Positions 1,121 to 37,793 of a stretch of 64,000 nt of DNA are shown here, one piece after another. The notes under the pieces are model-generated. The model was not told the origin of the DNA and made no database searches. It worked only from the letters and a program-made list of their open reading frames with translations. Origin of the DNA: Kutzneria kofuensis (GTDB taxonomy: Bacteria > Actinomycetota > Actinomycetes > Mycobacteriales > Pseudonocardiaceae); contig NZ_JACHIR010000005.1 in assembly GCF_014203355.1 (NCBI RefSeq), positions 62,001 through 126,000 of the forward strand, in the 5' to 3' direction. Every line of letters starts with the position of its first letter. Positions within the stretch are counted from its first letter, which is position 1. Position numbers and translations under genes: made by a program.

Positions 1121-1134
1121 GGGTCTTTCGGCCG
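1121..1134. promoter_or_regulatory. Candidate DevR/DosR box upstream of USP gene
   Basis: GGGTCTTTCGGCCG, an imperfect palindrome matching 10 of 14 positions of the mycobacterial DosR core GGGACTTTAGTCCC. It is 93 bases before the USP start at 1228 and nearly identical to the element in front of the phosphoketolase gene (37780-37793). Assignment rests on similarity and on placement before a DosR-regulon-type gene. Confidence 0.5.
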
Positions 1135-1227
1135 TGAGCGGCCGTGTCCTGCTTCCCTTCACCGGTCATCCCGGTTCTTCCTAGCGTCGATGTGCACGAG
1201 TCGTGCCCTGACGCCGAGGAGAGCGAA

Positions 1228-2121
1228 GTGACCAGCAACGTGGTGGGCCGCCAAATCGTGGCCGCCGTGGACGGATCCCAGTCCGCGCTCGACGCCGTCC
1301 GCTGGGCGGCGGACGAGGCGGCGCGCCGAGGAATGGCGCTGCAGTTGACGCACGCGATGAGCTTCGGAGCCATCGCCTACGGCGGCGCCTACGCGTGGCC
1401 GAAGGGGTACTTCGAGGCCGTGGAGCATGCCGGCCGTGTCTTCCTCGCGGACGCCGAGTCACTGGTCCACAAGTCGCACCCGGGCCTGTCCGTCACGACC
1501 CAGCTGGTCGAGGGCTCACCGGTCCCGGTGCTGGTGGACGCCTCCGAGCACGCCGCGTTGATCGTGCTCGGCTCCCGTGGGCTGGGTGGCTTCACCGGCA
1601 TCCTGATCGGTTCCACCGCCACCGCCACGATCGCGCGGGCGCACTGCCCGGTCGTGGTGGTCCGTGGTGACCAGCCCGCCCCGGACGGACCGGTCGTTGT
1701 CGGCGTCGACGGGTCGCCCACCAGTGAAGACGCCCTGGCTTGGGCGTACGAGGAGGCGTCGTCGCGGGGTGTCGAGCTGGTGGCCGTGCACGGCTGGACC
1801 GAGTTCGCCTCCGAGAGCTCCTACGCCTTCGCGCGGCAGTTCATCGTCGACTGGGACGCCGTGCAGACGCGGCAGGAGCAGCACCTGGCCGAGCGGCTCG
1901 CCGGCTACGCCGAGAAGTATCCGGACGTGACCGTTCGCCGGGTCGTCGAGGGCTGCCGGGCCCGCCAGCTCCTGCTGGACCAGGCCCGCGGCGCCCAGCT
2001 GGTGGTTGTCGGCAGCCGCGGCCGCGCCGAGCTCGGTGGCCTGCTGCTCGGTTCCACCAGCCAGGCTCTCATCCGCCATGCGCCCTGCCCGGTGCTGGTC
2101 GTCCGCGCCCACCAGGGCTGA
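1228..2121 (+). CDS. Universal stress protein, two USP domains
   Basis: 297-residue tandem universal stress protein. Each half has the USP Rossmann-like fold: N-terminal IVAAVDGS and VVVGVDGS strands and the ATP-binding motif G-2x-G-9x-G(S/T), seen as GSRGLGGFTGILIGST in the first half and GSRGRAELGGLLLGST in the second. Tandem USPs of this size are hallmark members of the mycobacterial DosR regulon and bind ATP; the precise output is unknown. I chose the GTG at 1228 because GAGGAGAGCGA precedes it; upstream in-frame starts would add 28 non-conserved residues. The gene is followed after 6 bases by the kinase-like gene, so the two are probably co-transcribed. A DosR-like box lies in the leader. 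Confidence 0.92.
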   Translation: MTSNVVGRQIVAAVDGSQSALDAVRWAADEAARRGMALQLTHAMSFGAIAYGGAYAWPKGYFEAVEHAGRVFLADAESLVHKSHPGLSVTTQLVEGSPVPVLVDASEHAALIVLGSRGLGGFTGILIGSTATATIARAHCPVVVVRGDQPAPDGPVVVGVDGSPTSEDALAWAYEEASSRGVELVAVHGWTEFASESSYAFARQFIVDWDAVQTRQEQHLAERLAGYAEKYPDVTVRRVVEGCRARQLLLDQARGAQLVVVGSRGRAELGGLLLGSTSQALIRHAPCPVLVVRAHQG

Positions 2122-2127
2122 CGTCAG

Positions 2128-3907: not shown

Positions 3908-4540
3908 ATGCGTACGACGTTCCACCAGGAGCTGGAGAGCATCGACGGGAAGCTGATCGGCATGACGCAGCTGGTGCAGTCGGCCATGGGGCGGGCCACC
4001 ACAGCGCTGCTGGAGGCCGACCGGACCACCGCCGGCGAGGTCATCGACGACGACGCCACGATCGACGCGCTGCGCCGCGAGATCGACGAGCACGTGCTCC
4101 GGGTGCTGGCCACCCAGCAGCCCGTCGCCGGCGACCTGCGGGTGCTGGTCGCCGGGCTGCGGATCGACCGCGACCTCGAACGCATGGGCGACCTTGCCCG
4201 GCACATCGCCGAGGTCGCGGCCGAGGACTTCCCGCACGTCGCCGTACCGGTGAAGCTGCGCGGCATCGTCCACTCGATGAACCGCGTCGCGCTGCGGATG
4301 GCCGAGCAGGCCAAGGAGGCCATCGGCTACCGCGACAAGAACTCCGCCGCCGAGCTCGACCGTGAGGACGACGAGATGGACTCCCTGCAGGCGGCCCTCT
4401 ACCGCGAACTGCTCACCACCGACGTCCCCGTCCACACGGCCCTCGAACTCGCCCTGCTCGGCCGCTACTACGAGCGCTACGCCGACCACGCCGTCTCCGT
4501 CGCCGAGAGCGTCCGCTTCGAGACGGGGGCAACGGCATGA
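3908..4540 (+). CDS. phoU: PhoU-family phosphate/signalling regulator
   Basis: 210-residue all-helical PhoU protein made of two repeated three-helix PhoU domains (about 10-100 and 115-205). Characteristic segments are DLRVLVAGLRIDRDLERMGDL and the matching second-half YYERYADHAVSVAE, which hold the metal-cluster-binding E/DxxxD pattern. PhoU proteins couple Pst transport to PhoR or SenX3-type kinases and affect persistence. The ATG at 3908 follows AAGGAG; the longer frame from 3887 has no ribosome site. No pst genes are nearby, and its placement in a stress island suggests a dedicated paralogue. Confidence 0.9.
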   Translation: MRTTFHQELESIDGKLIGMTQLVQSAMGRATTALLEADRTTAGEVIDDDATIDALRREIDEHVLRVLATQQPVAGDLRVLVAGLRIDRDLERMGDLARHIAEVAAEDFPHVAVPVKLRGIVHSMNRVALRMAEQAKEAIGYRDKNSAAELDREDDEMDSLQAALYRELLTTDVPVHTALELALLGRYYERYADHAVSVAESVRFETGATA

Positions 4541-4568: not shown

Positions 4569-5558
4569 TTACGGCACCAGGACGGCGGCACCGTCGACGC
4601 GGTCGCCGGCGAGGTCGGTCAAGGCGCGGTCAGCGTGGTCCAGGGGGTACGGCGTCGTCGTCACGTGCAACCGGTGCTGCGCGGCGAAGGCCATGAAGTC
4701 GGCGCCGTCCTGACGGGTGTTGGCCGTGACGCTGCGCAGTTGGCGTTCCTGGAACAGGTGGCGCTGGTAGTTCAACACGGGAATGTCGGACAGGTGGATG
4801 CCGGCGATCGACAGCGTGCCGCCTCGGTCCAGGGCCGCGAGAGCCGGCAGCACGAGGTCGCCGACGGGGGCGAAGAGGATGGCGGCGTCGAGCGGCTCGG
4901 GCGGCATGGCGTCGGCGGGGCCGGCGGAGGCGGCCCCGAGGCTCAGGGCCAGTTCGCGGGCGGCGGCGCTGCGGGTGAGCACGTGTACGGTGGCTCCCCG
5001 CGCCAGGGCGACCTGTGCGGCGAGGTGGGCGCTGGCGCCGAAGCCGTAGACGCCGAGACGACCGCCGTCGGGCAGGTCGGCACGTTCCAGCGCGCGGTAG
5101 CCGATGATGCCGGCGCACAGCAGCGGCGCCAGCTCCGCGTTCGAGTAACCGGTGGGTAGGCGGTACGCGTACGCCTCGGGCACCACGGTGTAGTCGGCGT
5201 AGCCGCCGTCGGCGTCCCAGCCGGTGTACCGGGAGTTCGGGCAGAGGTTCTCCGCGCCACGGCGGCAGTAGCGGCACTCGCCGCAGGTGTGCCGCAGCCA
5301 CGCGATGCCGACCCGCTCCCCCACGGCGAACCGCGAGCCGGGTGACACCACCTCCCCGACGACCTCGTGCCCGGGCACCACCGAAGCGCGGTGCACCTCC
5401 AAGTCCCCTTCGGACACGTGCAGGTCGGTACGACAAACGCCGCAGGCCAGCACGCGGACCAGGACCTCACCGGCGCCGGGCACGGGCCTTGGTTCGTCCG
5501 ACAGCCGAAGCGGTCCGGACGCCATCGGTCCAGGCCGGACCACACGCCAAGCCCTCAT
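4569..5558 (-). CDS. Zinc-dependent alcohol dehydrogenase (MDR family)
   Basis: 329-residue medium-chain dehydrogenase/reductase. The catalytic-zinc ligands are Cys42 (GVCRTDLH) and His64-Glu65 (PGHE). The structural-zinc cysteines are 92, 95, 98 and 106 (CGECRYC...C). The NAD(P)-binding Rossmann motif is [13 protein letters not shown]. It resembles the AdhA/AdhP-type enzymes that reduce aldehydes or oxidise primary alcohols; the exact substrate cannot be read. I chose the ATG at 5558 because GGTGAGGAGGCAGCG precedes it, while the longer frame adds an arginine-rich tail. Fermentative NADH re-oxidation would fit the hypoxia theme of the island, but that is inference. Confidence 0.88.
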
Positions 5559-6029: not shown

Positions 6030-6078
6030 GAGTCGTTGGCCGCTCTCCAGGTCCCGTGCCGACAGGGACTTCCGACCC
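6030..6078. promoter_or_regulatory. Tandem candidate DevR/DosR boxes upstream of CBS-PEP synthase operon
   Basis: The better element, GGGACTTCCGACCC at 6065-6078, keeps GGGAC-TT and the CCC tail of the DosR core. A weaker one, GAGTCGTTGGCCGC, is at 6030-6043. They lie 107-156 bases before the GTG at 6186. Tandem spacing of this kind is typical of strong DosR promoters in mycobacteria. Confidence 0.5.
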
Positions 6079-6185
6079 CCTGCGGCGCGCCGGATGGCGG
6101 CCAGCGCAGGGCCTTCTCCTCTGCGCCGGCCGCCGCTCCGAGGAGTCCGATGAAGAGGCAGATCGTGACCGGGGAGGAGAAGACG

Positions 6186-6893
6186 GTGAAACACCGGGAG
6201 ATCAACACTGTGATGGCCACCGATGTCGCCGTCGTGCACGGCGACACTCCGTTCAAGGACGTCGTGGCGCTGCTGGCCGAACGGCACATCAGCGGCGTGC
6301 CCGTGCTCGGCCCGGAGCAACGCGTGGTGGGCATCGTGTCCGAGAGCGACCTGCTGCACGGCACGACTGAACACCACAAGACGTTCTTCGGCCGGCACGA
6401 GCACCAGCCGCACAGTGTCGCCGCCGACGTGATGAGCTCGCCCGCGGTCTGCGTGCACCCGGACACGACCGTCGCGCACGCGGCGAAACTCCTTGCCGAG
6501 GAAGGTGTTCGTCGGCTGCCGGTGGTGGACGCCGACGGCCGCCTGGTCGGCATCGTCAGCCGCCGGGACGTGCTCAGCGTGTTCCTGCGCTCGGACAAGG
6601 ACCTGCGCGAGGAGATCCTCGACGAGGTCTTCGGACGCACGCTGTGGATGGACCCCGGTGAGGTGTCCGTCGAGGTGCACTCCGGCGTCGCGACGCTGCG
6701 CGGCCAGGTGGAGACGAAGGCGCTCGTGGACATCGCCGGCTCGCTGACCCGCGGCGTCGACGGCGTGGTGGACGTGCACAACCACCTGACCCACGCCCGT
6801 GACGACGCCCGGATCGACCGGGCGCACGGCAAGTTCGTGGAGTTCGACCACGAGCCGCTCAAGCCCATGCCGCACCGCGGAGGCTCGCTGTGA
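6186..6893 (+). CDS. CBS-pair and BON domain protein
   Basis: 235 residues. Two CBS motifs (about 5-60 and 80-135; FKDVVALLAERHISGVPVLG and AAKLLAEEGVRRLPVVDADG) form one Bateman module that typically binds adenine nucleotides. A BON-like domain follows (about 150-215; VEVHSGVATLRGQVETKALV). The domain pair is common in actinobacterial stress islands and in DosR-type regulons. I chose the GTG at 6186, which follows GGGGAGGAGAAGAC and gives the usual family N-terminus (MKHREINTVM). An ATG at 6150, also with an AGGAG, would add 12 residues. It overlaps the next gene by GTGATG and heads an operon with SHOCT, PEP synthase and nitroreductase genes. Confidence 0.9.
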   Translation: MKHREINTVMATDVAVVHGDTPFKDVVALLAERHISGVPVLGPEQRVVGIVSESDLLHGTTEHHKTFFGRHEHQPHSVAADVMSSPAVCVHPDTTVAHAAKLLAEEGVRRLPVVDADGRLVGIVSRRDVLSVFLRSDKDLREEILDEVFGRTLWMDPGEVSVEVHSGVATLRGQVETKALVDIAGSLTRGVDGVVDVHNHLTHARDDARIDRAHGKFVEFDHEPLKPMPHRGGSL

Positions 6894-7139: not shown

Positions 7140-9395
7140 ATGTCGCGCTACGTGAAGAACTTCGGCGAACTGGGCCGGGACGACACCGCGATCGCCGGCG
7201 GCAAGGGGGCCAACCTGGGCGAGCTGACCCGGGCCGGGCTGCCGGTGCCGGCGGGCTTCGTGGTGACGGCGCAGGCGTATCTGGACTCCCTGGACCGCTC
7301 GGGCCTGCGCGGCGAGATCGCCGAGGCCTTCCGCACGGCGCTGGACGTGTCACGGACACCCGACCTGCCGGCGGCGTGCGAGCGGATCCAGACGCTGGTG
7401 CGCAAGGCCGGCATCGCCGACGACATCCGGGCGGAGATCGAGGCCGCCTACCACCAGCTCGGTGACAATGCCGAGGTGGCCGTCCGGTCGTCCGCGACTT
7501 CCGAGGACACCGCCGGCACCTCGTTCGCCGGCATGAACGCCACGTACACCAACACCCTCGGCATCCACGACGTGCTGACCCGCCTGATCGACTGCTGGGC
7601 CTCGCTGTTCGGCCCACGTGTGGTCGCCTACCGCGCCAGCACGGGGCTGGACGAGGAGCCGGCGATCGCCGTCGTCGTGCAGCTGATGGTCGACTCGGCC
7701 CGGTCCGGCGTGGCGTTCACCGCCGACCCGTCCACCGGCGACCGCGGCCGCATCGTCATCGAGGGCGCGTACGGCCTGGGCGAGGTGGTGGTCAGCGGCG
7801 CGGTCGAGCCGGACACCTACGTCGTCGCCAAGCGGGGTCCCCGTCTGCTGCACGCCCGCACGGGACACCAGACGCACAAGATCGTGCGCGGCCCGGACGG
7901 CCATGACCTGCGCATCGACCTCGACGAGCAGACCGGCGCGAGCCGGGTGCTGACCGACGACGAGGCGATCGAGCTGGCCCGGCTGGCGCTGCAGGTGGAG
8001 GAGCACTACGGCAGCCCGCAGGACATGGAGTGGGCGATCGCCGACGGCCAGACCTGGCTCGTGCAGTCCCGCCCCATCACCACGCTCCACGAGGACCAGG
8101 CCGCCGGTTCCGAGCTGGTCACCGGCCTGGCCGCGTCGCCGGGCCGCGCCGTGGGCCGGGTACACCGGCTGGCCGGTCCCGCCGAGGGCGACCGGTTCCG
8201 GGACGGCGAGATCCTCGTCGCGGTCATGACCACCCCGGACTGGGTACCGACGATGCGCCGCGCCGCCGCGCTGGTCACCGACGGCGGCGGCATGACCTGC
8301 CACGCCGCGATCGTGGCCCGCGAGCTGGGCGTGCCGTGTGTGGTGGGCACGCGCAACGCCATGGAGGTGCTGCGCGACGGCGAGACTGTGACCGTCGACG
8401 GCGCGGCGGGCAAGGTCTTCGCCGGCCGGCTCGAGCCCGCCGCGCACACCGTTCCGCGGATCGCGCCGATGGCCGCACCGGCCGTGGAGACGTTGGGCAC
8501 CAAGGTGTACGTCAACCTCGCCATGCCGGAACACGCCGAGGAGGTCGCCGCGATGCCGGTCGACGGCGTCGGCCTGCTGCGGGCGGAGTTCATGGTCACC
8601 GAGGCCCTGGATGGTGAGCACCCACGCAAGTTGACGTCCCGGCCGGGCGGCAGCGAGAAGTTCACCGCTCGGATGACCGAGTCGCTGCTGCGGGTCACCC
8701 GCGCCTTTGCGCCGCGGCCGGTGATCTACCGGGCGATCGACTTCCGTACCAACGAGTTCCGCAACCTGGCTGGCGGCGACGCCTTCGAGCCGGTCGAGGA
8801 CAACCCGATGATCGGCTACCGCGGCTGCTACCGTTACGTCCGCGAGCCCAAGTTGTTCGCGTTGGAACTGGCTGTGCTGGCCAAGGTCCGCGAGCAGACA
8901 CCGAACCTGCACCTGATGATCCCGTTCGTGCGCACGCTGTGGGAGCTGCGCGCCTGCCTGGCCGCGATCGACGCCAGCCCGCTGGGGCACGACCGCCGGC
9001 TGCACCGCTGGGTGATGGCCGAGGTGCCGTCGGTGGCGTACTGGATCCCGCAGTACGGGCGGCTCGGCATCGACGGGATCTCCATCGGCAGCAACGACCT
9101 CACCCAACTCGTGCTGGGCGTGGACCGCGACTCGGAGATCTGCGCCAACCTGTTCGACGAGGCCGACCCGGCGGTGCTGGACACCATCGAGCGCATCATC
9201 ACCGCCGCCCGCGAGAACGGCATGACCACCTCGCTGTGCGGTCAGGCGCCGTCCACCAAGCCGGGGTTCGCCGAGGAGCTGGTGCGGATGGGCATCACGT
9301 CGGTGTCGGTCAACCGGGACGCGATCGCCGCCACGCGGTCCGAAATCGGCTCGGCCGAGCGCCGCCTGCTGCTGCGAACGGCCCGAGAAAGGTGA
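7140..9395 (+). CDS. ppsA: Phosphoenolpyruvate synthase
   Basis: 751 residues, close to the usual 750-800. It converts pyruvate + ATP + water to PEP + AMP + phosphate. The N-terminal ATP-grasp domain (about 5-330) has [21 protein letters not shown]. The swivelling phosphohistidine domain has [16 protein letters not shown] with catalytic His at about 388. The C-terminal PEP/pyruvate TIM barrel has [15 protein letters not shown] and the terminal SLCGQAPS with the proton-donor Cys at about 700. The start at 7140 follows GAAGGAGCTGGC. Under hypoxia it could serve anaplerotic or gluconeogenic flow. It sits between a SHOCT protein and an Acg-type nitroreductase in one operon. Confidence 0.93.
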
Positions 9396-9400
9396 TCACC

Positions 9401-10390
9401 ATGCTCACGAGCCCTGACGTGCGGACGTTGCGGAGCGCCGTGTCGCTGGCCGCACGTGCGCCGTCCATCCACAACTCCCAGCCGTGGCGTTGGCTGCTCG
9501 GCGCCACCTCGCTGCACCTCTACGCCGACGCCTCGCGCCTGTTGCCGGCGACCGACCCCGACGGGCGGGACCTGATGCTGTCCTGTGGGGCCGCGCTGCA
9601 CCACCTCCAGGTGGCGCTGGCGGCCTCCGGCTGGGGCACGCACGTGCACCGGTTCCCCAACCCGAACGAGCCCGACCACCTGGCCGCCGTGGAGTTCCTG
9701 CCTCGGGACGCCAGCCGGAACGACGTCGCGCTGGCGGCCGCGATCCAGCTTCGCCGCACCGACCGCCGCCGCTACACCTCGTGGCCGGTGCCGTCGGAGC
9801 TGATCGACGACCTGGCCCGGACTGCCGGTGCGTTCGGCACCGTGCTCATGCCCGCGACCGACCCCGACGACCGTTACCAATTGGTCGTCGCCCTGAGCGA
9901 GGCCTCGACGCAGCAGGAGGCCGATGAAGCCTACGCCGCCGAGTTGGCGACGTGGACCGGGCGCAGCCCGTTCGTCACGGAAGGCGTGCCGGCGACCAAC
10001 ATCCCAGCCGGTGAGCGCCGGCACGGCGACACCACGATGCGGGCCTTCCCGAACGGCCAGCTCACCGAATCGGGCGACCGGTGGGAGGACGACGCCGGCG
10101 AGTTGCTGGTGCTGGCCACGTCGACGGACGACGTCGGGGCGCGGCTGCGGGCCGGCGAGGCGATGAGCGCGGTTCTGTTGTGGGCCACGGACTTCCGCAT
10201 GGCCACCTGCCCGCTCAGCCAGGTCCTGGAGATCGAGGCGACCCGGAACGTGGTCCGCGACCGGGTGCTGGACGGCTTCGGCGTGCCGCAGATCGTGCTG
10301 CGGGTCGGCTGGGCCCCTGTCAACGCCGCGCCACTGCCCGCGACACCGCGGCGGCCGTTGGACGACATCCTCGGGAGGCAGGGACGATGA
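9401..10390 (+). CDS. Acg-type nitroreductase-fold protein
   Basis: 329 residues of the Acg/FMN nitroreductase subfamily found in mycobacterial DosR regulons (homologues of Acg/Rv2032 and Rv3131). The N-terminal signature is AARAPSIHNSQPWRW, followed by LLPATDPDGRDLMLSCGAAL. The C-terminal half supplies the lid and dimer segments (SAVLLWATDFRMATCPLSQ). Acg proteins have lost ordinary nitroreductase activity and may sequester FMN, so enzymatic function should not be assumed. The ATG at 9401 sits just after the ppsA stop. This is the full-length member of three in the window. Confidence 0.9.
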   Translation: MLTSPDVRTLRSAVSLAARAPSIHNSQPWRWLLGATSLHLYADASRLLPATDPDGRDLMLSCGAALHHLQVALAASGWGTHVHRFPNPNEPDHLAAVEFLPRDASRNDVALAAAIQLRRTDRRRYTSWPVPSELIDDLARTAGAFGTVLMPATDPDDRYQLVVALSEASTQQEADEAYAAELATWTGRSPFVTEGVPATNIPAGERRHGDTTMRAFPNGQLTESGDRWEDDAGELLVLATSTDDVGARLRAGEAMSAVLLWATDFRMATCPLSQVLEIEATRNVVRDRVLDGFGVPQIVLRVGWAPVNAAPLPATPRRPLDDILGRQGR

Positions 10391-10697
10391 ACGCGAAGGT
10401 CGGCACCAACGGGTTCGGCCGCTCGGGCGGGGCCTCCTGCGTAACGCCTCCACCTACGGCCCGCTCAGCCAGGAGAGGTACCGGGTGATCGGCCCGCGCC
10501 TGCGCGACAACGCGATCGTGCTGGACGAGGTGACCGGCGCGGCCGACCTGCCGTCCGGCTGGGGCGTCGACGTGAGTCTGGGCACCGGTTTGAGCGACGC
10601 AGTCGCACAAGCGCTCCCCGGACTCGTCGATCGGGTGCTCGGCGAGCTCGACCTCGATCAGGCCCGGCGAGACCGGCTGCGCTGGGCGGCGTCGTAG
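10387..10697 (+). pseudogene. Composite gene scar: GAPDH start / NiFe-hydrogenase remnants
   Basis: The ATG at 10387 overlaps the upstream stop and reads AKVGTNGFGR, the N-terminus of glyceraldehyde-3-phosphate dehydrogenase. Adding one base between 10422 and 10423 would restore GFGRIGRGLLRN, so a frameshift is likely. In the shifted frame the text continues YRVIGPRLRDNAIVLDEV and ADLPSGW, which resembles the N-terminus of the beta subunit of group 3b-type NiFe hydrogenases. It then runs directly into DVSLGTGLSDAVAQALPGLV and DRVLGEL, which resembles the C-terminus of a hydrogenase maturation protease, ending at TAG 10697. The most likely reading is a deletion scar joining three genes. Family assignments are from memory of conserved motifs, not from a search. 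Confidence 0.5.
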
Positions 10698-12014: not shown

Positions 12015-14270
12015 TCAGGTGCTCGGTGTCAGGCTGAAATAGCCCTGTTCCTCCTGGGCGAAGTGCAGCGTGAGCACGGCATCGAGGCCGTAGAGCGTCG
12101 CACGCAGGTCGTCGACCTGGCCCGGCCGCACCGGGCCCTCCGACAGGTGACGGGCCAGTCGGCGCACCAGGCGTTCGATCTCGGCGTGCCCACGGCTCAT
12201 CGTCGTTGTGGACTCGCTGCTGCCGAGGATCTCCCCCACCGCCGGATACAGCTCGTGTTCCTCCGCCCGCTCGTGCGGCAAGAGGTGGTCGACGAGCAGC
12301 CGGTAGGCACGGCGCGTCTCGGCGTCGGCGTGCTCGGTGGCGCCGTCGGAGAGTGAGTCGGCGGCCGCACGAACGGCGGCGCGCACCGGCACCAGCAGCT
12401 CGTGCTCGTCGGCGAAGCGCCGCAACAGCTCCTGATCGTGTTCGCCGACGCGTTGCCGACGCTTGGGCAGCAGGGCCCGCAGGCTGTTCAGGATGACGGC
12501 GACGTCGATGAGCTCCTGCACGAGCGCACCGGCAACGGGTATCAGCAGCCCGAACGCGGCGACTCCCATGGCCGCCACGGACAGCCCGAGGCCGGTCGCC
12601 GCGCTCTGCACGGCGATCCGCCGAGCGCGGGACGCCGTCTCGACGGCGGCGGCCAGCGGGTCGATCCGGTCGCTCAACACCACCGCGTCCGCGGCCTGTG
12701 CGGCGGCGGTGGCTCCGCGGGCGCTCAGCGCGACGCCGACATCGGCCGTGGCCAGCGCCGGCGCGTCATTGAGACCGTCGCCGACCATGACCGTGACGGC
12801 ACGGCGATGTTCCGCCGCCACCCGCTCGACCTTCGTCGCCGGGGTGGACTCGGCCTGCACATCATCGAAACCCAGCAGTCCGCCGACATCCACCGCGGTC
12901 TCAGTGCGGTCACCGGTCAGCAGCACGATGCGGCGGAGGCCGACCGACCGCAGTCGACGCAGCGTCCGTGCCGCATCGGGCCGGATCTCGTCCTTGGCCA
13001 GCACCGCGCCGACCGCCTCGCCGCCGACGGTCACCCAGATCGGGATCGCACCGTCGAGACCGGCACGGCGCAGTGCGGACGCCGCCCACCCGGTCTCGGG
13101 CGGAACGTCCCACAGCGGTTTCCCCACCGCGACAACCTCGCCGTCGACGATGCCGACGGCTCCACGGCCCGGCTCCTCGCGCACCTCGGTGGCCTTCAGG
13201 ATGCCCAGCGGCCGTGCCGCATCGACAACCGCGGCCGCCAGCACATGGGATGACAGCGCCTCCACGGCGGCCGCTGTGCGGAGCACCACCTCGCGTTGGT
13301 GACCGGGAGCGGTCAGCACGTCCGTCACCCTCGGCGCGCCCCGGGTGACCGTACCCGTCTTGTCCAGGACGGCGGTTTCCGCTCGTCCCAACGCTTCCAA
13401 TGCTCGCCCGTCACGGACCACGACACCCTGCCGGCTTGCGCGGGACATGCCGGCAGTGACCGCGATCGGCACGGCCAGCAGCAGTGGACACGGCGTCGCG
13501 GTCACCAACACCGCCACCGCTCGCACCGGATCGCCGGTCAGCGCCCACGCGATCGCGGCAATGCCAACCGCAAACGGCAGGAACACCGCCGCGAACCGGT
13601 CGGCCAGGCGGGCCACCGGGGCGGACTTCGCGGTCGCCGCGCCGGCCATCCGGACGATGCCCGCGTACGTGCTCTCGGTTGCCCGCCGTGCAGCGACGAT
13701 GTCGACCGCACCGCCGGCGTTGACGACGCCGCTGCTCACGTGCTCGCCGGGCTGCCGCTCCACCGGCAGCGGCTCGCCGGTGAGCGCCGACTCGTCGAAC
13801 GTGCCGGCCATGGCCAAGCGGCCGTCGACCGGCACGATCTCGCCGGGCAGCACCACGATCGTGTTACCCGGCACCACCTCGTCAACATCCACGGGTGTCA
13901 ATTCGTCGTCGACACGCACCCGTGTCCGGGTGGGCGACCGGTCCAGCAGTGCGCTCAAGTCGCGGCCTGCACGACGTTCCGCGTACAGCTCCAGGACGCG
14001 ACCGGTCGCGAGCATCACGCCGATCACCGCGCCGGCGAGGTATTCGCCAACCGCCAGCGTGCCACCCAGCGCGAGTACGGCGAGGACGTCCGCGCCGAGG
14101 CGACCGGCACGCAGATCCACGGCGGCCCACCACACGGCCGGCAGCAGCGCGGCCGCCGCACCGGCACCCCACGCGAGGTCGGCCCAGCCAGCGCCAAGCG
14201 CCCACAGGGCCAGGCCTGCGGCCACTGCGGCGGCCGTGAGCGCCAGCAACGCTACGGCGAAACGTTCCAT
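12015..14270 (-). CDS. P1B-5 metal ATPase (Nia-like) with C-terminal hemerythrin domain
   Basis: 751 residues. Membrane helices (about 5-100), actuator TGE in SALTGEPLP, the transmembrane metal motif [10 protein letters not shown] (about 258-267), phosphorylated Asp303 in DKTGTVT, and the hinge GDGLNDAPA (about 495). The last about 140 residues are a hemerythrin-like bundle with ligand-rich [25 protein letters not shown] and [15 protein letters not shown] plus a hemerythrin tail defines P1B-5 ATPases such as Nia of Sinorhizobium meliloti, which exports Ni and Fe. No N-terminal metal-binding domain is present. It starts one base after the stop of the upstream USP (TGACATG), so the two are coupled. 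Confidence 0.88.
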
Positions 14271-21811: not shown

Positions 21812-21881
21812 CGTCACCACTCTCCCGCTGTGTAGCCGAATCCGTCCTGTTCAGCGTCGCGGGAGCGGCCGGCCGGCCCCA

Positions 21882-21895: not shown

Positions 21896-21925
21896 GGTCG
21901 AGGTCCCGATCTGGCCGGGACCTAG

Positions 21926-26302: not shown

Positions 26303-26362
26303 GGGCCACACGTCCCCAGGGTCCCGGGCGCGATGGCACTGTCAGGGTGGGCCGTGCGTCCG
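26303..26362. promoter_or_regulatory. Two candidate DevR/DosR boxes in divergent promoter
   Basis: GGGCCACACGTCCC (26303-26316) and GGGCCGTGCGTCCG (26349-26362) each match the outer GGGnC and GnCC half-sites of the DosR palindrome. They lie in the 110-base gap between the minus-strand ATPase/USP operon and the plus-strand CBS-BON gene. Confidence 0.45.
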
Positions 26363-26375: not shown

Positions 26376-27014
26376 ATGACGTACCCGACCGTTCGATCGG
26401 TGATGACGACTCCGGTGATCGCCGTGACAACCGACGCCCCGTTCAAGGAGATCGCCCGCACGCTGGCCGAGTACCGGATCAGCGCGGTCCCGGTGATCGA
26501 CGACAGCGGGCGTGTCACCGGCGTGGTGTCCGAGGCCGACCTCATTCGCAAGGAAGAGATGCGGGGCGGACTCGACCACCTGCTGTCCACCACGCACCGG
26601 GCGCGGAGCCGCAAGGCGCACGCCGCCACCGCCGCCCGGCTCATGACCTCGCCCGTGATCACCATCGGCCCGGACGCGACCGCGGAGGACGCCGCGAGCA
26701 AGCTCGGCCGTGCCGACGTGCGCCGGCTGTTCGTGGTCGAGGGTGACGGTCGGCTCGCCGGAGTGCTGTCCCGCGCGGATGTGCTGCGCCTGTTCCTCGT
26801 CCCCGACGAGGTCGTGCGGGAGCGGGTGCTCCGGGCCGTGCCCGCGGGTGTGACGGCCACCGTCAGCGAGGGCGTCGTGACGCTCGGCGGCCGTGTCGAG
26901 CGCCGCAGCCAGGCCCTCTCCGCCATCCGCGTCGCATGGGCGCTGCCCGGCGTTGTCGGCGTCGCCGGCGCCGTCGAGCACGAGGTCGACGACGTGGATC
27001 CGGGTGTGGCGTGA
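26376..27014 (+). CDS. CBS-pair and BON domain protein
   Basis: 212 residues. CBS1 (about 5-60, [20 protein letters not shown]), CBS2 (about 85-140, [20 protein letters not shown]) and a BON-like tail (about 150-205, [20 protein letters not shown]). It is the same architecture as the protein at 6186, so probably a paralogue. No recognisable Shine-Dalgarno precedes the ATG at 26376, suggesting a leaderless or near-leaderless message. It precedes devR by 44 bases on the same strand, so read-through into devR is possible. Confidence 0.9.
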
Positions 27015-27058: not shown

Positions 27059-27706
27059 ATGACCATTGGCGTGTTCCTCGTCGACGACCACGAGATCGTC
27101 CGGCGGGGGATCTCCGACCTGCTGGAGGGCGAGCAGGACCTGCAGGTCGTGGGTGAGGCGGGCACGGTCGCCGAGGCCCTGGTCCGGGTCCCCGCCGCGC
27201 AACCCCAGGTCGCCGTGCTCGACGTGCGGCTGCCCGACGGCAACGGCGTCGAACTCTGCCGCGAGCTGCGCTCCGCCATGCCACAACTGCAGTGCCTCAT
27301 GCTCACGTCGTTCTCCGACGACGACGCCCTGTTCGACGCCATCATGGCCGGCGCCGCCGGCTTCCTGCTCAAACAGGTGTTGGGCAGCGACCTGGTCAAC
27401 GCCATCCGCACCATCGCCGGCGGCCAGTCCCTGCTCGACACCCACACCACCTCCGCCCTGCTCGCCCGCCTGCGCCGCGACCAGGAACAACGCACCGACC
27501 CCCTGGCCGTGCTGTCCGACCAGGAACGCGTCGTGCTGGAGCTCATCGGCGAAGGCCTGACCAACCGCCAGATCGCCGAACGCATGTACCTGGCCGAGAA
27601 GACCGTCAAGAACTACGTCTCCCACCTGCTGGCCAAACTCGGCATGCAACGCCGCACCCAGGCGGCGGTGTTGGCCACCGAGCTGAAGGACAAGCGCGGT
27701 TCCTGA
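27059..27706 (+). CDS. devR: DevR/DosR-type response regulator
   Basis: 215 residues, co-linear with M. tuberculosis DevR (DosR). Receiver: acidic pocket in VFLVDDHE, phospho-acceptor Asp55 in [17 protein letters not shown], Thr/Ser switch in MLTSFSD and Lys105 in GFLLKQ. LuxR-type HTH (about 148-208): [38 protein letters not shown], here split in two runs, [17 protein letters not shown] and [20 protein letters not shown], nearly identical to DevR in the DNA-recognition part. This supports recognition of a DosR-like box. The start at 27059 follows CCGGAGGTGG. No devS or dosT kinase gene is adjacent, and no obvious box precedes the gene. Confidence 0.92.
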
Positions 27707-27727: not shown

Positions 27728-28720
27728 ATGGGAGGGCACGTGCGCAAGCCTTCGGCGGTCGTCTTCTACACGCTGAGCATCCTGGCGTCTCCACTGATCC
27801 TGATCGGTTACATCGTGTGGGTCGGCAAGACCATCGCCACGGGCCGCTCGGGTGTGTCCGGGACGGCTCAGGGGCCGCTGTCGGCCCGGTTCTCCGAACA
27901 CAACTTCGGGACGAGACGGGACGAGGCAGCGGACCGGCTGATCCGGGTGCTGCCCGGCATCCCGCGCCTGGGCCTGCGGCTGGCGACCGGTCCGGTGCTG
28001 TTGGCGCACCGGCTGTCCGGGTACGTGCCGCGGGCGTTCAGATATCCCTTCGAGGGCGAGGTCTCCCCGCAGTACGAGGCCTCCGCGCGCATCTGGTTCT
28101 TCGACGCGGCCGTCGACCGGCATCTGCCCGACATGGCGCAGTTCGTCATACTCGGCGCGGGTTTCGACACGCGCGCCTATCGGCTTCCGGCCGATGCGCG
28201 GGTGCGGGTGTTCGAGGTGGATTCTCCACGAACCCAGCTGGTCAAGCGCGAGACGCTGGCGAAGGCCGGCATCGATGCCAGCGCGGTGACGTTCGTGCCG
28301 GCGGACTTCGAGAAGCAGGACTGGCTCGGCTGCCTCACCTCGGCGGGATTCGATCCGGGTGAGCCGGCACTGTTCCTGTGGGAGGGCGTGACCATGTACC
28401 TCGAACGGGCGGCCGTCGAGGACACCCTGCGCAAGATCGCTTCGACGGCGCTCGGAAGCGTCGTCGCGTTCGACTACTTCACCAGCGAAGCGCTCGACTC
28501 GCGCGCGCTGTACTGGCGTTTTGCCAGGGCCACGACGAAGGCAACGGGAGAGGTGCTGAAGTTCGGTGTCGACAGCACCCCGCCCTCCCGTGAACGCCTG
28601 GCCGAACTGCTCGCATCCTGCGGGCTTTCGCTGTCCGATCACCGCACCCTCGGCGCCGACACGCCCAGTCGCCGGGCCTGGGGCGGGTTCGCGACCGCGA
28701 CGGTGGACAAGCCGTCCTAA
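27728..28720 (+). CDS. Membrane-anchored SAM methyltransferase (TIGR00027/PPM-like)
   Basis: 330 residues. A leucine-carboxyl-methyltransferase-like fold of the actinobacterial 'O-methyltransferase involved in polyketide biosynthesis' type. SAM-binding motif I is FVILGAGFDTRAYRLPA, motif II VFEVDSPRTQLVKR, and the family element FLWEGVTMYLE. Unusually, about 45 residues precede the family domain, with a hydrophobic helix (about 12-33, VVFYTLSILASPLILIGYIV), so the enzyme may be membrane-anchored. A GTG at 27740 with GGGAGG is an alternative start. It lies 21 bases after devR; no polyketide genes are near. Confidence 0.82.
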   Translation: MGGHVRKPSAVVFYTLSILASPLILIGYIVWVGKTIATGRSGVSGTAQGPLSARFSEHNFGTRRDEAADRLIRVLPGIPRLGLRLATGPVLLAHRLSGYVPRAFRYPFEGEVSPQYEASARIWFFDAAVDRHLPDMAQFVILGAGFDTRAYRLPADARVRVFEVDSPRTQLVKRETLAKAGIDASAVTFVPADFEKQDWLGCLTSAGFDPGEPALFLWEGVTMYLERAAVEDTLRKIASTALGSVVAFDYFTSEALDSRALYWRFARATTKATGEVLKFGVDSTPPSRERLAELLASCGLSLSDHRTLGADTPSRRAWGGFATATVDKPS

Positions 28721-28817
28721 CCCACGACGACCAGGTCGGCCGCGGCCTGCACGATCCGGGTCAGCGTGGAGTCGCAACGGCCGGTCACGTCCAAGGGTCC
28801 TGTGAATCTCCTGGACG

Positions 28818-28883: not shown

Positions 28884-29507
28884 ATGACCAGTCCAGTCCC
28901 CGCCAGCCTCGGGCTCAGCCCGGCCGAGGTGACCACCGTGCTCGAAGCGGCGGCCATGGCCCCGTCGGTGCACAACAGCCAACCCTGGCGATTCCGGGTC
29001 CTGCCCGACCGCATCGAGCTGCACGCCGACCTCACGCGCCGGCTACCGGCCACCGACCCGGGCGACAAGGAACTGCGGCTGGCATGCGGCGCCGCCCTGA
29101 CCAACCTCCGCATCGCGCTGGAAGCCCTGGGCATCCGCCCAATGGTGACGCTGCTGCCACACGGCCAGGCACGAGACCGGCTGCCAGGCAAGGACTTCGA
29201 GCGCGAACCACTGATCGCCGTCGTCTGCTCCTACTACGAGGGCCTGCTGGCCGAGCTGCACGCCGGCCAAGCCATGCAGCGCGTACTGCTCACCGCCACC
29301 ACCCTCGGCCTGTCCGCCTCGTTCATCGCCCAACCGATCGAAGTGCCCGAATGCCGCAAGCAGCTGCGCCACCTGCTGGGCGCCGGCATCACCCCCCAAA
29401 CCATCCTGCGAATCGGTCACGGCAGCCCGGTCGCGCCCACACCCCGACGTCCCATCGCCGACCTGCTCATGGACGGCGAACCCGCGCTGCCGGGAGGCAC
29501 CTCATGA
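28884..29507 (+). CDS. Acg-type nitroreductase-fold protein with internal deletion
   Basis: 207 residues instead of about 330. The N-terminal 110 residues are canonical (AAAMAPSVHNSQPWRF, LPATDPGDKELRLACGAALT). The text then jumps from LLPHGQARDRLPG straight to the C-terminal core EREPLIAVVCSYYEGLL, QRVLLTATTLGLSASFIAQP and ITPQTILRIGHG. The middle segment of about 110 residues seen in the protein at 9401 is missing, without a frameshift. It may still fold as the minimal core, or be inert. It heads a four-gene coupled operon (ATGA overlap with the next gene), arguing that translation is maintained. Confidence 0.85.
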   Translation: MTSPVPASLGLSPAEVTTVLEAAAMAPSVHNSQPWRFRVLPDRIELHADLTRRLPATDPGDKELRLACGAALTNLRIALEALGIRPMVTLLPHGQARDRLPGKDFEREPLIAVVCSYYEGLLAELHAGQAMQRVLLTATTLGLSASFIAQPIEVPECRKQLRHLLGAGITPQTILRIGHGSPVAPTPRRPIADLLMDGEPALPGGTS

Positions 29508-30280
29508 CCATCAAGGCCGTCCTGGCCGGGTTCTCGCCCATCATCGACTCACTGGCCACCATCACCTGGGCCGCCGACTACGCCGGTCGCCTACACGCCC
29601 CGCTGCGGGTCGTGCTCGCCGACGGCGGCAGCCTGCCCGCGCTCTACAACGCGACCGCGACCGTCCGCACCCGTTACCCACAGCTGTCGCTGTCGGCGAT
29701 GACGGCCAATGACAGTCTTGTCGACGCGCTGTTGGATCGCGCCACCGACGCGCACCTGATCGTCGTCGACCGTGCCGCCGCCAAGGCCGGCATGGCCGCG
29801 ACCGTGGCGGCGCAGGCGAGCTGCCCGGTCGCCACCGTCGCCCCCGGAACGGCCTGGGACGGCGAGAACCGGCCGATCCTGGTCGGAGCGGACGGGACCG
29901 AGCACTCCGAGCAGGCGCTGCGCTGGGCGTTCACCGAGGCCGACCGGCTCGGCCGCGGCGTCCGCGTCGTGCACTGCCAGCCACACCGGACGAGCACCGA
30001 GCAGCGCAACTCGGTGTTCGACCTGGTCTCGTTGTTCGCCGGCCGCTACCCCGCGATGGCCATGCAGCTACACACGCTGGTATGCGCACCCGCGGATGCC
30101 CTGGCGTGGCACTCCCAGTTCGCAGCGATGGTCCTCATCGGCCACCACGAACACGGCATAGGCGGCCGGATCTACCGCAGGGTGCTGCGCGAGGCGGCCT
30201 GCCCCGTCGTCATCGCCGGCCCCGACACCATCCTCGACGCCGCAATCGCGGCGCCGGCCCTCGACACCGTGAGGAGCTGA
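29504..30280 (+). CDS. USP-like protein, degenerate tandem
   Basis: 258 residues. The second half is a recognisable USP domain starting ILVGADGTEHSEQALRWAF and ending GHHEHGIGGRIYRRVLREAACPVVIAG, where the ATP motif reads GHHEHGIGGRIYRRV and lacks the terminal G(S/T). The first half (TIKAVLAGFSPIIDSLATIT...) is more divergent still, ending VVDRAAAKAGMAATVAAQASCPVATV. Probably a USP that no longer binds ATP. The ATG overlaps the upstream nitroreductase stop; I reject the longer upstream frame as arginine/proline-rich noise. Confidence 0.85.
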   Translation: MTIKAVLAGFSPIIDSLATITWAADYAGRLHAPLRVVLADGGSLPALYNATATVRTRYPQLSLSAMTANDSLVDALLDRATDAHLIVVDRAAAKAGMAATVAAQASCPVATVAPGTAWDGENRPILVGADGTEHSEQALRWAFTEADRLGRGVRVVHCQPHRTSTEQRNSVFDLVSLFAGRYPAMAMQLHTLVCAPADALAWHSQFAAMVLIGHHEHGIGGRIYRRVLREAACPVVIAGPDTILDAAIAAPALDTVRS

Positions 30281-33530: not shown

Positions 33531-33694
33531 TCACCGGTCCTCGGTGACCTCGACGCGGAGCGAATCCGTGTCGCGCAGCCGCGGCGACCAGCGCCGGCGG
33601 GAAGTCGATGAGCCGATCCCGCCAGGCACTCGGCCCGGTCGAGGACATCGAGGCCCGCAGCGTCGAACACGGCTTCCCGCTCTCGTCCGGACAT
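33531..33694 (-). pseudogene. Possible remnant of a PNPOx-like (split-barrel) gene
   Basis: From ATG 33694 the minus strand reads MSGREREAVFDAAGLDVLDR and then AECLA, which resembles the N-terminus of actinobacterial pyridoxamine-phosphate-oxidase-like proteins (LEVLDRxECLxLL). The continuation is only coherent in another frame, ending LRVEVTEDR and a stop at 33531. The whole is about 55 codons, far below the usual 130-220. Weak evidence. Confidence 0.25.
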
Positions 33695-33698
33695 GGCT

Positions 33699-33728
33699 GT
33701 GTGACCAGGGCATCGGCCCTGGTCACAC
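33699..33728. terminator. Hairpin between convergent genes
   Basis: Perfect 13-bp inverted repeat GTGTGACCAGGGC / GCCCTGGTCACAC with a 4-base loop. It stands between the end of the GNAT-synthetase gene (33527, plus) and the end of the DoxX-like gene (33738, minus), so it probably terminates both. Confidence 0.7.
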
Positions 33729-34314: not shown

Positions 34315-35319
34315 TCAGTTCAGGGTTTCTTCGGTCTGTCGTGCCATCTCCAGGTCCTCACGGGCCGGCGTCACGATCGGGTCGACGCCGAGGAACTCCA
34401 GTCCGGTGGCCAACTCGTCGAGCAGGCCGGGCTGGTGCTCCGCGACGCCGCCGGTCAGGACCAGCGCGTCCAGTCGAGGCAGGGACGTTCGGGCGGCCGC
34501 GATCTCCCGACGCAACCGGTGCAGGTAGACACGGACGGCCACGTCCGCGTCGGCGCTGCCCTGTGCGCGGGCGGCGAGCACCTCGCGCAGATCGCCGTTC
34601 GTGCCCGACAATCCGGCGAGTCCACTGTGGTGGTTCAGCCCGTCTTCCAGCGCCTCCAACGGGATTTCCCGCGCCAGGTACAGCAGCAGGCCCGGGTCGA
34701 GCGCACCGGGACGGGTCGCCATCGGGACTCCGTCCAGCGGCGTGAACCCCATCGAGGTGTCGACGCTGCGCCCGCCGTCGATCGCCGTGACGGAGACGCC
34801 GGAGCCGAGGTGGCAGCAGATCATCGCCACCTCCCCCGCCCTCCGCCCCAGCGTCTCCGCTGTCGTGCGCAGCGCGTTGGCGCACGACAGACCGTGGAAG
34901 CCGTACCGCCGGACGCCGAACTTCCGCGTCCACTCCACCGGGATCGGATATGTCGACGCCGCCGGCGGCAGGCCGGTGTGGAAGCTGGTGTCGAAGCACG
35001 CGACGATCGGCACGTCCGGCCACCAGTTTCGCAGCGCCCGCACCATCGACAGGGATCGTGGCTGGTGGATCGGAGCCATCGGCACCAATCTCCGCAGGTC
35101 CTGCGCCACTGCCTCGTCCAGCACGACCGGACCGGTGCGATCGCCGCCGTGTACGAACCGCACCGCTATCGCGTCGACCGGGCCGACGGCCTCGACCTCG
35201 GCGGGATCAGGCATGCCGTCCCAGTCCGACTCGGCCCACTCGCCGAGTGTCGTCCCAGCGTCCACAACGGACACCTTGAGACTGGACGACCCCGGGTTGA
35301 CGGTCAGCACGCGGCTCAT
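34315..35319 (-). CDS. ackA: Acetate kinase
   Basis: 334 residues. ASKHA-fold kinase converting acetyl phosphate + ADP to acetate + ATP. Signatures: [17 protein letters not shown] at the N-terminus, [45 protein letters not shown] and [19 protein letters not shown]. It is about 60 residues shorter than typical AckA (near 400), missing parts of the C-terminal region, though catalytic motifs remain. The ATG overlaps the xfp stop (ATGA). Coupling to phosphoketolase identifies its substrate source as acetyl phosphate from sugar phosphates. Confidence 0.92.
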
Positions 35320-37688
35320 TGCGTCCACGTCCACTCACGGATCTCCGGCAGGTCCTCGCCGGTGCGCCGAATGTGGTCGTGGTGCACCGCCAGCCGGTCC
35401 AGCAGCTGCTGCCGCACGTGCCCGAGCCGGCCGGTGACCCGCGGCACGCGTTCCAGTGCGGCCAGCGCGAGGTGGTAGCGGTCCAGCTCGTTCAGCACGC
35501 ACATGTCGAACGGCGTCGTGGTCGTGCCGTTCTCGTGGAAACCATGCACATGCAGGTCGTCGTGGCCCGGCCGCCGGTAGGTCAACCGGTGGATCAGCCA
35601 CGGATAGCCGTGATAGGCGAAGATCACCGGCGCGTCGGTGAAGATCTCCCGGTACGCCTTGTCGTCGATGCCGTGCGGATGCTGCTCCGGCGAAGCCAGC
35701 CGGGCCAGGTCGACCACGTTGACCACGCGGATCCGCAGGTCCGGCACGAACTCCCGGAGCACCTGCACCGCCGCCAGCGTCTCCTGGGTCGGCACGTCCC
35801 CGGCGCACGCCATCACGACGTCGGTGTCACCCTCGGCGTCGGTGCTGGCCCAGCGCCACACGCCCAGGCCCTGCTCGCAGTGCGCCGCCGCCTCGTCGGC
35901 CGTCAGGTACTGCAAGGCCGGCTGCTTGCCCGAGACGATCACGTTGACCAGGCCGTGGCTGCGCAGGCAGTGATCGGCGACGGACAGCAGGCAGTTGGCG
36001 TCCGGCGGCAGGTACACCCGGACGAGCTCGGGCCGCTTGTTCAGCACGTGGTCGACGAAACCGGGGTCCTGGTGCGAGGCGCCGTTGTGGTCCTGCCGCC
36101 ACACGTGCGAGGTCAGCAGGTAGTTCAGGCTCGGAATCGGCCGCCGCCACGGGATCCGCGCCGCGGTGTGCAGCCACTTCGCGTGCTGCGCCACCATCGA
36201 GTCCACCACGTGCGCGAACGCCTCGTAGCTGGACAGCAGCCCGTGCCGGCCGGTCAGCAGGTAGCCCTCCAGCCAACCCTGGCACAAATGCTCGGACAGC
36301 ACCTCCAACACCCGGCCGTCCGGGGCGAGGTGGTCGTCGCCGGGCTCCGTGGCCAGCTGCCAGCGTCGGCCGGTCACCTCGAACACGGCGTCCAGGCGGT
36401 TGGAGGCGTGCTCGTCGGGGGCGAACAGCAGCAGGTTGTGCTGCTCCTCGTTGAGCCGCATGGCATCCCGCAGGTAGGTGCCCAGCCGTTTGGTCGACTC
36501 CGCGACGACCGTTCCCGGCATCGGCACCTCGACGGCGTGCTCCGCGGGATCGGGCAGCCGCAGATCACGCTGGACCTGCCCGTGGGTGACGGGTTTCGCG
36601 CTGATCCTGTCCGTCCCCAGTGGACGGTGATCACACACCATCGGCACCGGTGCGCCATCCCGCTCGAACAACTCCTCCGGACGGTAGGACAGCATCCACT
36701 GCTCCAGACACGCCAAGTGGTGCGCGTCCTCACGAATGGCGGCGAACGGCACCTGGTGCGAGCGCCAACTGCCCTCGACCTGTTTGCCGTCGATCTCGTG
36801 CGGGCCGGTCCAGCCCTTCGGCGTGCGCAACACGATCATCGGCCACTTGCGGTCGCGGCTGCCGTAACCACGACGAGCCGCGCCCTGGATCTCCCGGATC
36901 CCCAGCACGCACTTCTCCACCGCGTCCGCGTAACTCTCATGCACCTCGGTCGGATCGCTCCCGGCGACCTCGATCGGCCGCCAACCATGCCCGATCAGCA
37001 ACGAGTTCAGCTCGTGCCGTGGAATCCGGGCCAACACCGTCGGGTTGGCGATCTTGTAGCCGTTCAGGTGCAGGATCGGCAGCACCGCACCGTCCCGCTC
37101 CGGCGACAGGAAAGCCGTTGCCTGCCAACTGGTCGCCAGCGGACCGGTCTCCGCCTCGCCGTCACCGATCACGCACGCCGCGATCAGACCCGGATTGTCC
37201 AGCACCGCACCGGTCGCGTGCGCCAACGAGTAACCCAGCTCGCCACCCTCGTGGATGGAACCGGGCAGGTGCGCCGAGGCGTGACTCGGGACGCCGCCGG
37301 GGAAGGAGAACTGCCGGAACAGCCGCCGCATGCCGTCCTCGTCCTGCGAGATCTCCGGATAGCACTCCGAATACGTGCCCTCCAGCCACGCCGCCGCGTT
37401 CAGGCCGGCCGCGCCGTGACCGGGGCCGGTCACCAACATCAGGTCCAGCTTGTGCAACATGATCATGCGGGACAGGTGGGCGTAGGTCAGGGTCAGGCCG
37501 GGCACGGTCCCCCAATGCCCGAGCAGCCGCGGCTTCACATGCCGTGGCTGCAGCGGCTCGCGCAGCAAGGGGTTGTCCAGCAGGTAGATCTGCCCGACCG
37601 ACAGGTAGTTGGCCGCGCGCCACCACGCGTCCAGTCGCTGCACCCAACGCGTCGTCGGTTGCTGCCCGATCGAGCCTGCGGTGATCAT
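35316..37688 (-). CDS. xfp: Xylulose-5-P/fructose-6-P phosphoketolase
   Basis: 790 residues, normal family length. ThDP enzyme cleaving xylulose-5-phosphate (and often fructose-6-phosphate) to acetyl phosphate. The N-terminus [20 protein letters not shown] is diagnostic, followed by [18 protein letters not shown], the ThDP motif [34 protein letters not shown] and C-terminal [19 protein letters not shown]. The ATG at 37688 follows CGGGAGCGTTGG; the longer frame adds 78 unlike residues. It heads an operon with ackA and doxX. A DosR-like box lies 92 bases upstream. Confidence 0.95.
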
Positions 37689-37779
37689 CCAACGCTCCCG
37701 TGGTCGCTGCTCCCGATTCAGCTCCCACAGTCGCTGGTGGTCGAGGTCCCCGGCCGCAGGCGGCCGACCCGAACCGCCG

Positions 37780-37793
37780 GAGTCTTTCGGCCC
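37780..37793. promoter_or_regulatory. Candidate DevR/DosR box upstream of xfp
   Basis: GAGTCTTTCGGCCC, sharing the 9-base run GTCTTTCGG with the box before the USP gene at 1228 (12 of 14 positions identical). It lies in the 294-base gap between xfp and the sialidase-like gene. No gene is seen in that gap besides this element and the terminator at 37941. Confidence 0.5.

Follow-up and report, generated by a model that had tools for sequence, protein, structure and literature searches.

The 64,000-nucleotide window analysed here, bases 62001-126000 of contig C5 (177 kb) in the 10.4 Mb, five-contig genome of Kutzneria kofuensis, carries a gene for a DosR/OsdR-type response regulator, devR, within an island of stress and metabolic genes. 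Genes were called by codon usage, families were named from Pfam and NCBIfam, and relatives came from a genus-level search over seven genomes (G000 is this genome; G001-G004 and G006 are among the relatives). The island spans the universal stress protein (USP) gene at 1192 to the phosphoketolase gene, with a called start at 37643; the ends given in a preliminary description of this DNA, 1121 and 37793, coincide with the first base of the leftmost Dev-box-like site (1121-1134) and the last base of the rightmost one (37780-37793). It encodes five USPs, four CBS proteins, three Acg-type proteins, one Rv1733c-family protein, three P-type ATPases (two of class II, CtpF-like, and one heavy-metal-type with a C-terminal hemerythrin domain) and the metabolic enzymes phosphoenolpyruvate (PEP) synthase, alcohol dehydrogenase, acetate kinase and phosphoketolase. 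The features are listed below with their strand (sites have none); C2 is the contig that carries a second copy of the island, and Dev boxes are matches to a mycobacterial-type consensus.

27-1097, +: HisKA-class kinase, after an OmpR-type regulator gene and just outside the range of the preliminary description; judged not to be the DevR partner
1121-1134: Dev-box-like site with two mismatches, before the first USP gene
1192-2121, +: USP (Pfam)
3908-4540, +: PhoU-domain protein
4569-5483, -: Zn-type alcohol dehydrogenase
6065-6078: Dev box GGGACTTCCGACCC, before the CBS-BON/PEP synthase/Acg genes; the identical 14-mer lies before hsp20 in the C2 copy
6150-6893, +: CBS-CBS-BON protein
7140-9395, +: PEP synthase (NCBIfam, above cut-off)
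9392-10390, +: Acg family flavin mononucleotide (FMN) oxidoreductase
10464-10649, +: [NiFe]-hydrogenase operon remnant, pieces of the first and last genes fused by deletion; operon kept in G001 and G004
12015-14270, -: heavy-metal-type P-type ATPase with C-terminal hemerythrin domain
14272-14778, -: USP (Pfam)
14852-14865: weaker Dev-box-like site, three mismatches to the M. tuberculosis-type consensus, before the USP/P-type ATPase-hemerythrin genes
15965-16091, +: usp-like remnant, 76% identical to the end of a usp gene kept on C2
16107-18710, +: class II cation P-type ATPase (CtpF-like)
19180-20028, -: USP (Pfam); second copy on C2
20025-20870, -: Acg-like protein, no Pfam match, NCBIfam score 81.8 against a cut-off of 199
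20867-21172, -: CBS-domain protein
21257-21820, -: Rv1733c-family membrane protein (NCBIfam)
21918-23336, +: insertion sequence with DDE_5 transposase (21972-23228); appears to split a Dev box upstream of the Rv1733c-family gene
23333-23728, -: USP (Pfam)
23725-26265, -: class II cation P-type ATPase (CtpF-like)
26303-26316: Dev box between the divergent CtpF-like ATPase gene and the CBS-devR operon; also in the CBS-devR promoter of 4/4 relatives
26415-27014, +: CBS-CBS-BON protein, upstream of devR
27059-27706, +: devR, NarL-family response regulator of 215 residues, 64% identical to M. tuberculosis DevR and 98% to C2:12416-13060
27728-28720, +: S-adenosylmethionine-dependent methyltransferase (TIGR00027/PF04072), in the dosS slot
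28728-28778, -: 51-bp dosS remnant, codons 51-68 of the C2 copy, 98% identical to L032:14566-14615
28884-29507, +: Acg-type protein, about 132 internal codons fewer than the C2 copy
29504-30280, +: USP (Pfam); duplicated on C2
30301-30894, +: CBS protein; duplicated on C2
30891-33527, +: GNAT plus acyl-CoA synthetase-like fusion protein
33622-33706, -: pyridoxamine-phosphate-oxidase-like gene remnant; gene kept on C2
34315-35334, -: acetate kinase (AckA)
35316-37643, -: phosphoketolase (Xfp)
37780-37793: Dev-box-like site with two mismatches, before the phosphoketolase-acetate kinase genes; at the same promoter in 4/4 relatives and in homologous C2 DNA

That the window holds a DevR-controlled island of the hypoxia/dormancy type is supported by its gene content, by synteny with the islands of its congeners and by Dev boxes found at orthologous promoters. 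The preliminary description had proposed as much, and its regulator, its island and the lack of a DosS-type kinase in the window all stand, as do its four CBS proteins, its PEP synthase and its Rv1733c-like protein (the latter two score above the NCBIfam cut-off), but some of its gene counts need correcting. Pfam gives five USPs (1192, 14272, 19180, 23333 and 29504) and not six, besides the usp-like remnant at 15965-16091; the three Acg-type proteins are all found, but one (28884-29507) is internally shortened and another (20025-20870) falls below the cut-off; and in place of a single CtpF-like pump there are two class II ATPases plus the heavy-metal-type ATPase-hemerythrin protein.

Window DevR consists of a receiver and a LuxR/GerE-type output domain, and M. 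tuberculosis DevR was the best among nine PDB sequences matched at E ≤ 1e-20 (3c3w; E=2e-84, 134 of 210 aligned residues identical), so that the DevR homologue proposed at 27059 is borne out, its phosphorylation and DNA-contact residues included. In the alignment D8, D9, D54, T82, K104, K179, K182 and N183 are all kept; K179, K182 and N183 are DNA-contact residues, and other positions in this set belong to the acidic pocket. Between the window and C2 devR genes, 15 codons differ synonymously and five change the amino acid (nonsynonymous rate, dN, 0.018; synonymous rate, dS, 0.104; dN/dS ~0.17), which indicates that window devR stayed conserved. Roles of Asp54 and K182 in DevR are described in PMC3029386 and PMC5999986.

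Beside window devR only the 51-bp fragment of a DosS-type kinase gene was found. None of the 40 HisKA_3 matches of the genome in a profile search lies on contig C5, and tblastn over C5:42-136 kb with the three DosS/DosT-type kinases of the genome returned four matches at E ≤ 1: a 17-residue dosS fragment (E=0.009) and three matches at E 0.048 to 0.77. The earlier statement that no GAF-histidine kinase accompanies devR is thereby upheld. DNA identity between the window and C2 reaches 27697, 9 bp short of the devR end, resumes inside dosS at 28728-28778 (51 bp, 98%) and then again from 28783 into acg. The intervening methyltransferase gene (27728-28720) has only partial best matches, at most 45% identical, in the six other genomes of the genus. 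A methyltransferase in the dosS slot together with the dosS fragment thus indicates that the kinase gene was lost from the window copy: on this evidence the missing kinase is a lineage-specific loss that has left a scar, and one apparently later than the duplication of the island in this lineage.

The second copy lies on contig C2, where devR (C2:12416-13060), whose protein is 98% identical to window DevR, is convergent with a kinase gene, dosA. There devR and dosA are followed by acg, usp and cbs, with proteins 86-94% identical to those of the genes after window devR, and it is in C2 acg that the ~132 internal codons missing from window acg (28884-29507) are found; four further USP genes, an Hsp20 gene, an Rv1733c-family gene and the gene for a second kinase, DosB, are near C2 devR. 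In trees for four of the five genes shared by the two copies, window and C2 sequences group together in every case (4/4, support 0.992-1.000), and hence the duplication is later than the split from the relatives, unless gene conversion has intervened. Judged by hand from a tblastn table against the G001 and G004 islands, and with one 52-residue open reading frame excluded, five genes are present in both copies, 21 only in the window, seven only on C2 and 10-11 in neither; these figures do not exceed what independent loss would give (Fisher p 0.17-0.18), so no claim is made that the copies lost genes in a complementary way. A perfect Dev box (L032:12208-12221) stands before C2 devR and adjoins a homologue of the DNA upstream of the window Rv1733c-family gene; deletions of intervening genes apparently brought this Rv1733c-promoter-like DNA before C2 devR.

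A genome-wide search for GAF kinases with haem ligands, as the preliminary description had recommended, was made with the C2 kinase as query and gave five matches at E ≤ 1e-20, two of them single-GAF kinases on C1 and three full-length DosS/DosT-type kinases:

DosA, C2:13088-14767, convergent with C2 devR
DosB, C2:6028-7707
DosC, C1 7.562-7.564 Mb

Their first GAF domains matched DosT (2vzw) at E=4.4e-58, 7.3e-59 and 4.6e-59, respectively, and DosS (2w3d) was also matched. All three have His at the position of DosS His149 (proximal), Tyr at that of Tyr171 (distal) and, as in DosT, Gly at that of Glu87; the roles of these residues in DosS/DosT are given in PMC4082495. The order GAF-GAF-HisKA_3-HATPase, with proximal His, distal Tyr and H-box, is found in the DosS/DosT-type kinases of this genome, although the second GAF of DosA was missed by Pfam and matched instead by the GAF-family chain 2vjw, and HisKA_3 of DosB in the called protein scored 22.4 against a Pfam cut-off of 24. 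By sensor residues and domain order, DosA, DosB and DosC are thus assigned as DosS/DosT-type haem kinases. The two single-GAF HisKA_3 kinases on C1 adjoin DevR-like regulators 63% (3.985 Mb) and 41% (7.262 Mb) identical; the kinase at 7.262 Mb, 45% identical to the first GAF of DosA, was considered as a haem sensor and rejected, as it has no haem-histidine motif. At L035:9577-17153 on C1, the 63% regulator and its single-GAF HisKA_3 kinase adjoin cytochrome bd oxidase genes and also an ABC transporter gene, CydDC-like by position.

Relatives of devR at least 90% identical occur in G000 and G004 (two copies each), G001, G002 and G003. The orthologous island was read in G001-G004, and in 4/4 a kinase gene is kept by devR: the DosA-type gene is convergent with devR, which it adjoins in G002, whereas a single small gene separates the two in G001, G003 and G004. 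The G003 devR match covers residues 75-215 only (G003:C1:609662-610090), and the adjoining kinase gene is long and open. In G006, where devR is more divergent (78%), a single small gene separates it from a DosA-like kinase gene (63%). The second devR of G004 (91%; L039) had no matched island genes and no kinase match within 10 kb. The G001 and G004 islands follow the window gene order from PhoU/alcohol dehydrogenase to phosphoketolase, insertions and losses aside; that of G002 is a reduced version and that of G003 was read from its middle onward. All four differ from the window by the kinase gene kept by devR, and some also by the [NiFe]-hydrogenase operon (G001 and G004) and by cytochrome bd genes (G001 and G003), which were identified by Pfam in G001 and by size and first residues in the others. 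The G001 and G004 operon comprises genes for an Fe-S protein, a cyclic nucleotide (cNMP)-binding protein, an NAD-binding subunit, small and large subunits and a maturation protease; window positions 10464-10649, with pieces of its first and last genes, are read as its excision scar. In G001 and G004 the gene separating devR from the kinase gene belongs to the cadmium-resistance-transporter family, and an S30AE ribosome-hibernation-type gene lies elsewhere in the island (by Pfam, on G001 genes only; the G001 stretches are L144:8689-9282 and L145:1534-2196); neither was detected by tblastn in either island copy of this genome.

Dev boxes were counted with the mycobacterial-type consensus GGGACTTNNGGCCC, at no more than two mismatches in intergenic DNA with 50-bp margins. 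The island set (window, C2 and the C1 devR region) gave ten matches in 8,691 intergenic bases compared to two in 19,061 control bases (p=3e-4), and the window alone against controls gave p=0.0046; sites of this quality lie upstream of member operons. At the same promoters, boxes are common to the window and the islands of the relatives: those before the devR and phosphoketolase operons recur in 4/4, the latter also in homologous C2 DNA, and the box upstream of the Rv1733c-family gene is kept in G001, G003 and G004. In the window this last box appears to have been split by the insertion sequence at 21918-23336, which is 99.9% identical to L031:2558-3977, ~38 kb upstream on C5. At no more than three mismatches the C2 island exceeds shuffled sequences (16 matches, shuffle maximum 13), and none of four consensus forms rises above the shuffle maximum in the window island. 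Exact GGGWCTTNNGRCCC occurs eight times in 10.4 Mb, four of them in the two island copies, a count not used as a test because the pattern was drawn up after some of the sites had been seen. Other patterns were discarded: GGGACNNNNGTCCC at no more than two mismatches is depleted in the window (37 versus 97 in shuffles), and an OsdR matrix built from the 26 S. coelicolor sites in Table 1 of PMC5069765, with mostly coding matches (16 in the 37.8 kb island, four of them intergenic, and six in the remaining 26.2 kb), was dropped for the mycobacterial-type consensus. A stringent DosR motif, GGGACTTNNGNCCCT, is given for M. smegmatis in PMC6448022.

Read directly in the DNA are the island, its second copy, the loss of dosS, the kinases with their sensor residues and the boxes in common. 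With dosS lost from the window copy and kept on C2, window DevR is a conserved regulator that has no kinase in cis, and we consider it likely that the island is one of two copies that arose by duplication and lost different genes, the window losing dosS and C2 keeping devR and dosS, and that window DevR is driven in trans by an unlinked haem kinase. The preliminary description had called the input to DevR unknown, which, with three DosS/DosT-type haem kinases in the genome, no longer holds as stated; among the options it listed, a distant DosS gains support, given DosA beside a 98% identical DevR and the fragment of a lost dosS in the window. Trans-phosphorylation, oxygen as the signal and activation of the island are inferred: at low oxygen a DosT-like haem kinase would become ligand-free and phosphorylate both DevR copies, C2 DosS (DosA) being the likeliest candidate and DosB and DosC the alternates; each DevR copy would bind the Dev boxes of both half-islands, and window DevR would activate transcription via the boxes before the USP, CBS-PEP synthase, CtpF/CBS-devR and phosphoketolase operons. 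Such trans-wiring has a precedent in S. coelicolor, where the orphan response regulator SCO3818 is a second cognate partner of the kinase SCO0203 (PMC5069765). More tentatively, and with rather less than an even chance of being right, duplication and later splitting of the regulon would have left a half-island on each of two contigs; both would have a devR of their own, and the one DosS encoded alongside would be a sensor shared by two regulators; given the perfect Dev box placed before C2 devR, the two DevR copies may differ in autoinduction strength, for a graded or staged response to hypoxia.

Several observations weigh against a haem kinase acting in trans on a duplicated island. Receiver positions 26, 29, 35 and 40 differ between window and C2 DevR, possibly changing which kinase each accepts; two of the ten island box matches sit in one C1 promoter, and the window match at 3800 is not common to the relatives; at no more than three mismatches the window island is at shuffle level (12 matches, mean 11.6), and genome-wide the consensus at no more than two mismatches is rarer than its reversed control (1121 versus 1977). 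Gene conversion could also mimic a recent duplication. That the half-islands were instead acquired separately from different Kutzneria lineages, with no duplication in this one, is suggested by the uneven DNA identity between the copies (devR 95.8%, USP (29504) 88.5%, CBS 91.2%, USP (19180) 85.9%) and by the USP 19180 protein being nearer to that of G001 (89%) than to its own C2 copy (82%), but we regard it as unlikely when the copies group together in all four gene trees. It also appears quite unlikely that window devR is a duplicate in decay that no longer functions, with C2 devR serving both half-islands: window acg is truncated, and the hydrogenase, pyridoxamine oxidase and dosS genes are reduced to remnants, but devR itself is intact with low dN/dS and all checked residues, and its operon keeps the box found in four relatives.

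Among other inputs to DevR, the preliminary description had raised, as speculation, acetyl phosphate made by the Xfp of the island, so that DevR, with AckA as buffer, would report metabolic state without a kinase. The Xfp and AckA genes do lie behind a Dev-box-like site, and acetyl phosphate has been used to phosphorylate OsdR in vitro (PMC5069765). The idea is nonetheless unsupported in its own right and very unlikely, because the same genes are equally present in the islands of four relatives that keep dosS; with three haem kinases encoded in the genome, acetyl phosphate is not needed as an input. AckA would, moreover, also consume acetyl phosphate. Least likely of all is that DevR is driven by the HisKA-class kinase at 27-1097, which adjoins the island, or by some other non-DosS-like kinase, such as the single-GAF HisKA_3 kinases beside the DevR-like regulators on C1: the former directly follows an OmpR-type regulator gene, G002 has a matching pair in the same order although it also has dosA, and kinases beside DevR-type genes in this genome are of the HisKA_3 class, whereas of the latter the one at 7.262 Mb has no haem-histidine motif.

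How often devR stands alone was surveyed in the best 80 DevR loci of the search. A kinase match is present in the available flank of 63, and a called kinase with the haem-histidine pattern in 58 (59 with L077, whose motif differs by one residue), of which 45 are convergent with devR and within 3 kb (exact ends, overlaps of up to 60 bp allowed). Among the 65 loci whose flanks each exceed 5 kb, a pattern-bearing kinase is missing in 17, although full-length kinase matches do exist in two of them, L077 and L113; in 21/80 no haem-motif kinase was recognised in the flank, five of these having less than 5 kb on one side. DevR thus stands alone in a minority of cases, though not rarely, and a DosS-type kinase beside devR is common, not universal.

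The system is of a known kind (DosRS/OsdRK), of which the split, trans-wired layout would be a variant. It resembles DevR/DosR-DosS/DosT of M. tuberculosis in its regulator (64% identical, phospho-acceptor and DNA-contact residues unchanged), in haem-GAF kinases with the same ligand residues, in the Dev-box consensus and in the USP, Acg, Rv1733c-type and CtpF-type genes of the window and the Hsp20 gene of the C2 copy, but differs in that window devR has no kinase in cis, the island is present twice, each time in reduced form, and the DosT-type Gly is found in each of the three full-length kinases. As described in PMC5069765, S. coelicolor OsdR-OsdK (SCO0204/SCO0203) likewise has a stress region around the DevR orthologue, with USP, alcohol dehydrogenase, pyruvate phosphate dikinase, nitroreductase and hemerythrin genes in common; there, however, osdK and osdR form an operon. 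Unlike the S. coelicolor region, the family-scanned island proteins of the window include no nitrate reductase, and the S. coelicolor consensus AGGGCCGATCGGCCCT is not enriched here. In open-licence PubMed Central papers, nothing was found on Kutzneria with dormancy and DosR and, among those listed for DevR paralogues, no title describes such an island.

The history of an apparently kinase-less dormancy regulator can thus be traced through a scar and a sister copy, with cross-wiring between contigs of one genome as the prediction, in a soil actinomycete where one may ask how several DevR copies are served by DosS-type kinases and why a regulator persists once its kinase is gone. With no haem-motif kinase recognised in the flank at 21/80 DevR loci, 'no kinase nearby' should not be read as 'input unknown'.

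Beyond the island, where the family scan covered seven window genes only (gene starts past 37.9 kb), positions 43783-64000 hold several large regulator-like genes (g42, g43, g49 and g50), putatively of the BTAD/LuxR type; relatives of these genes lie both up- and downstream on C5 (L031 and L037).

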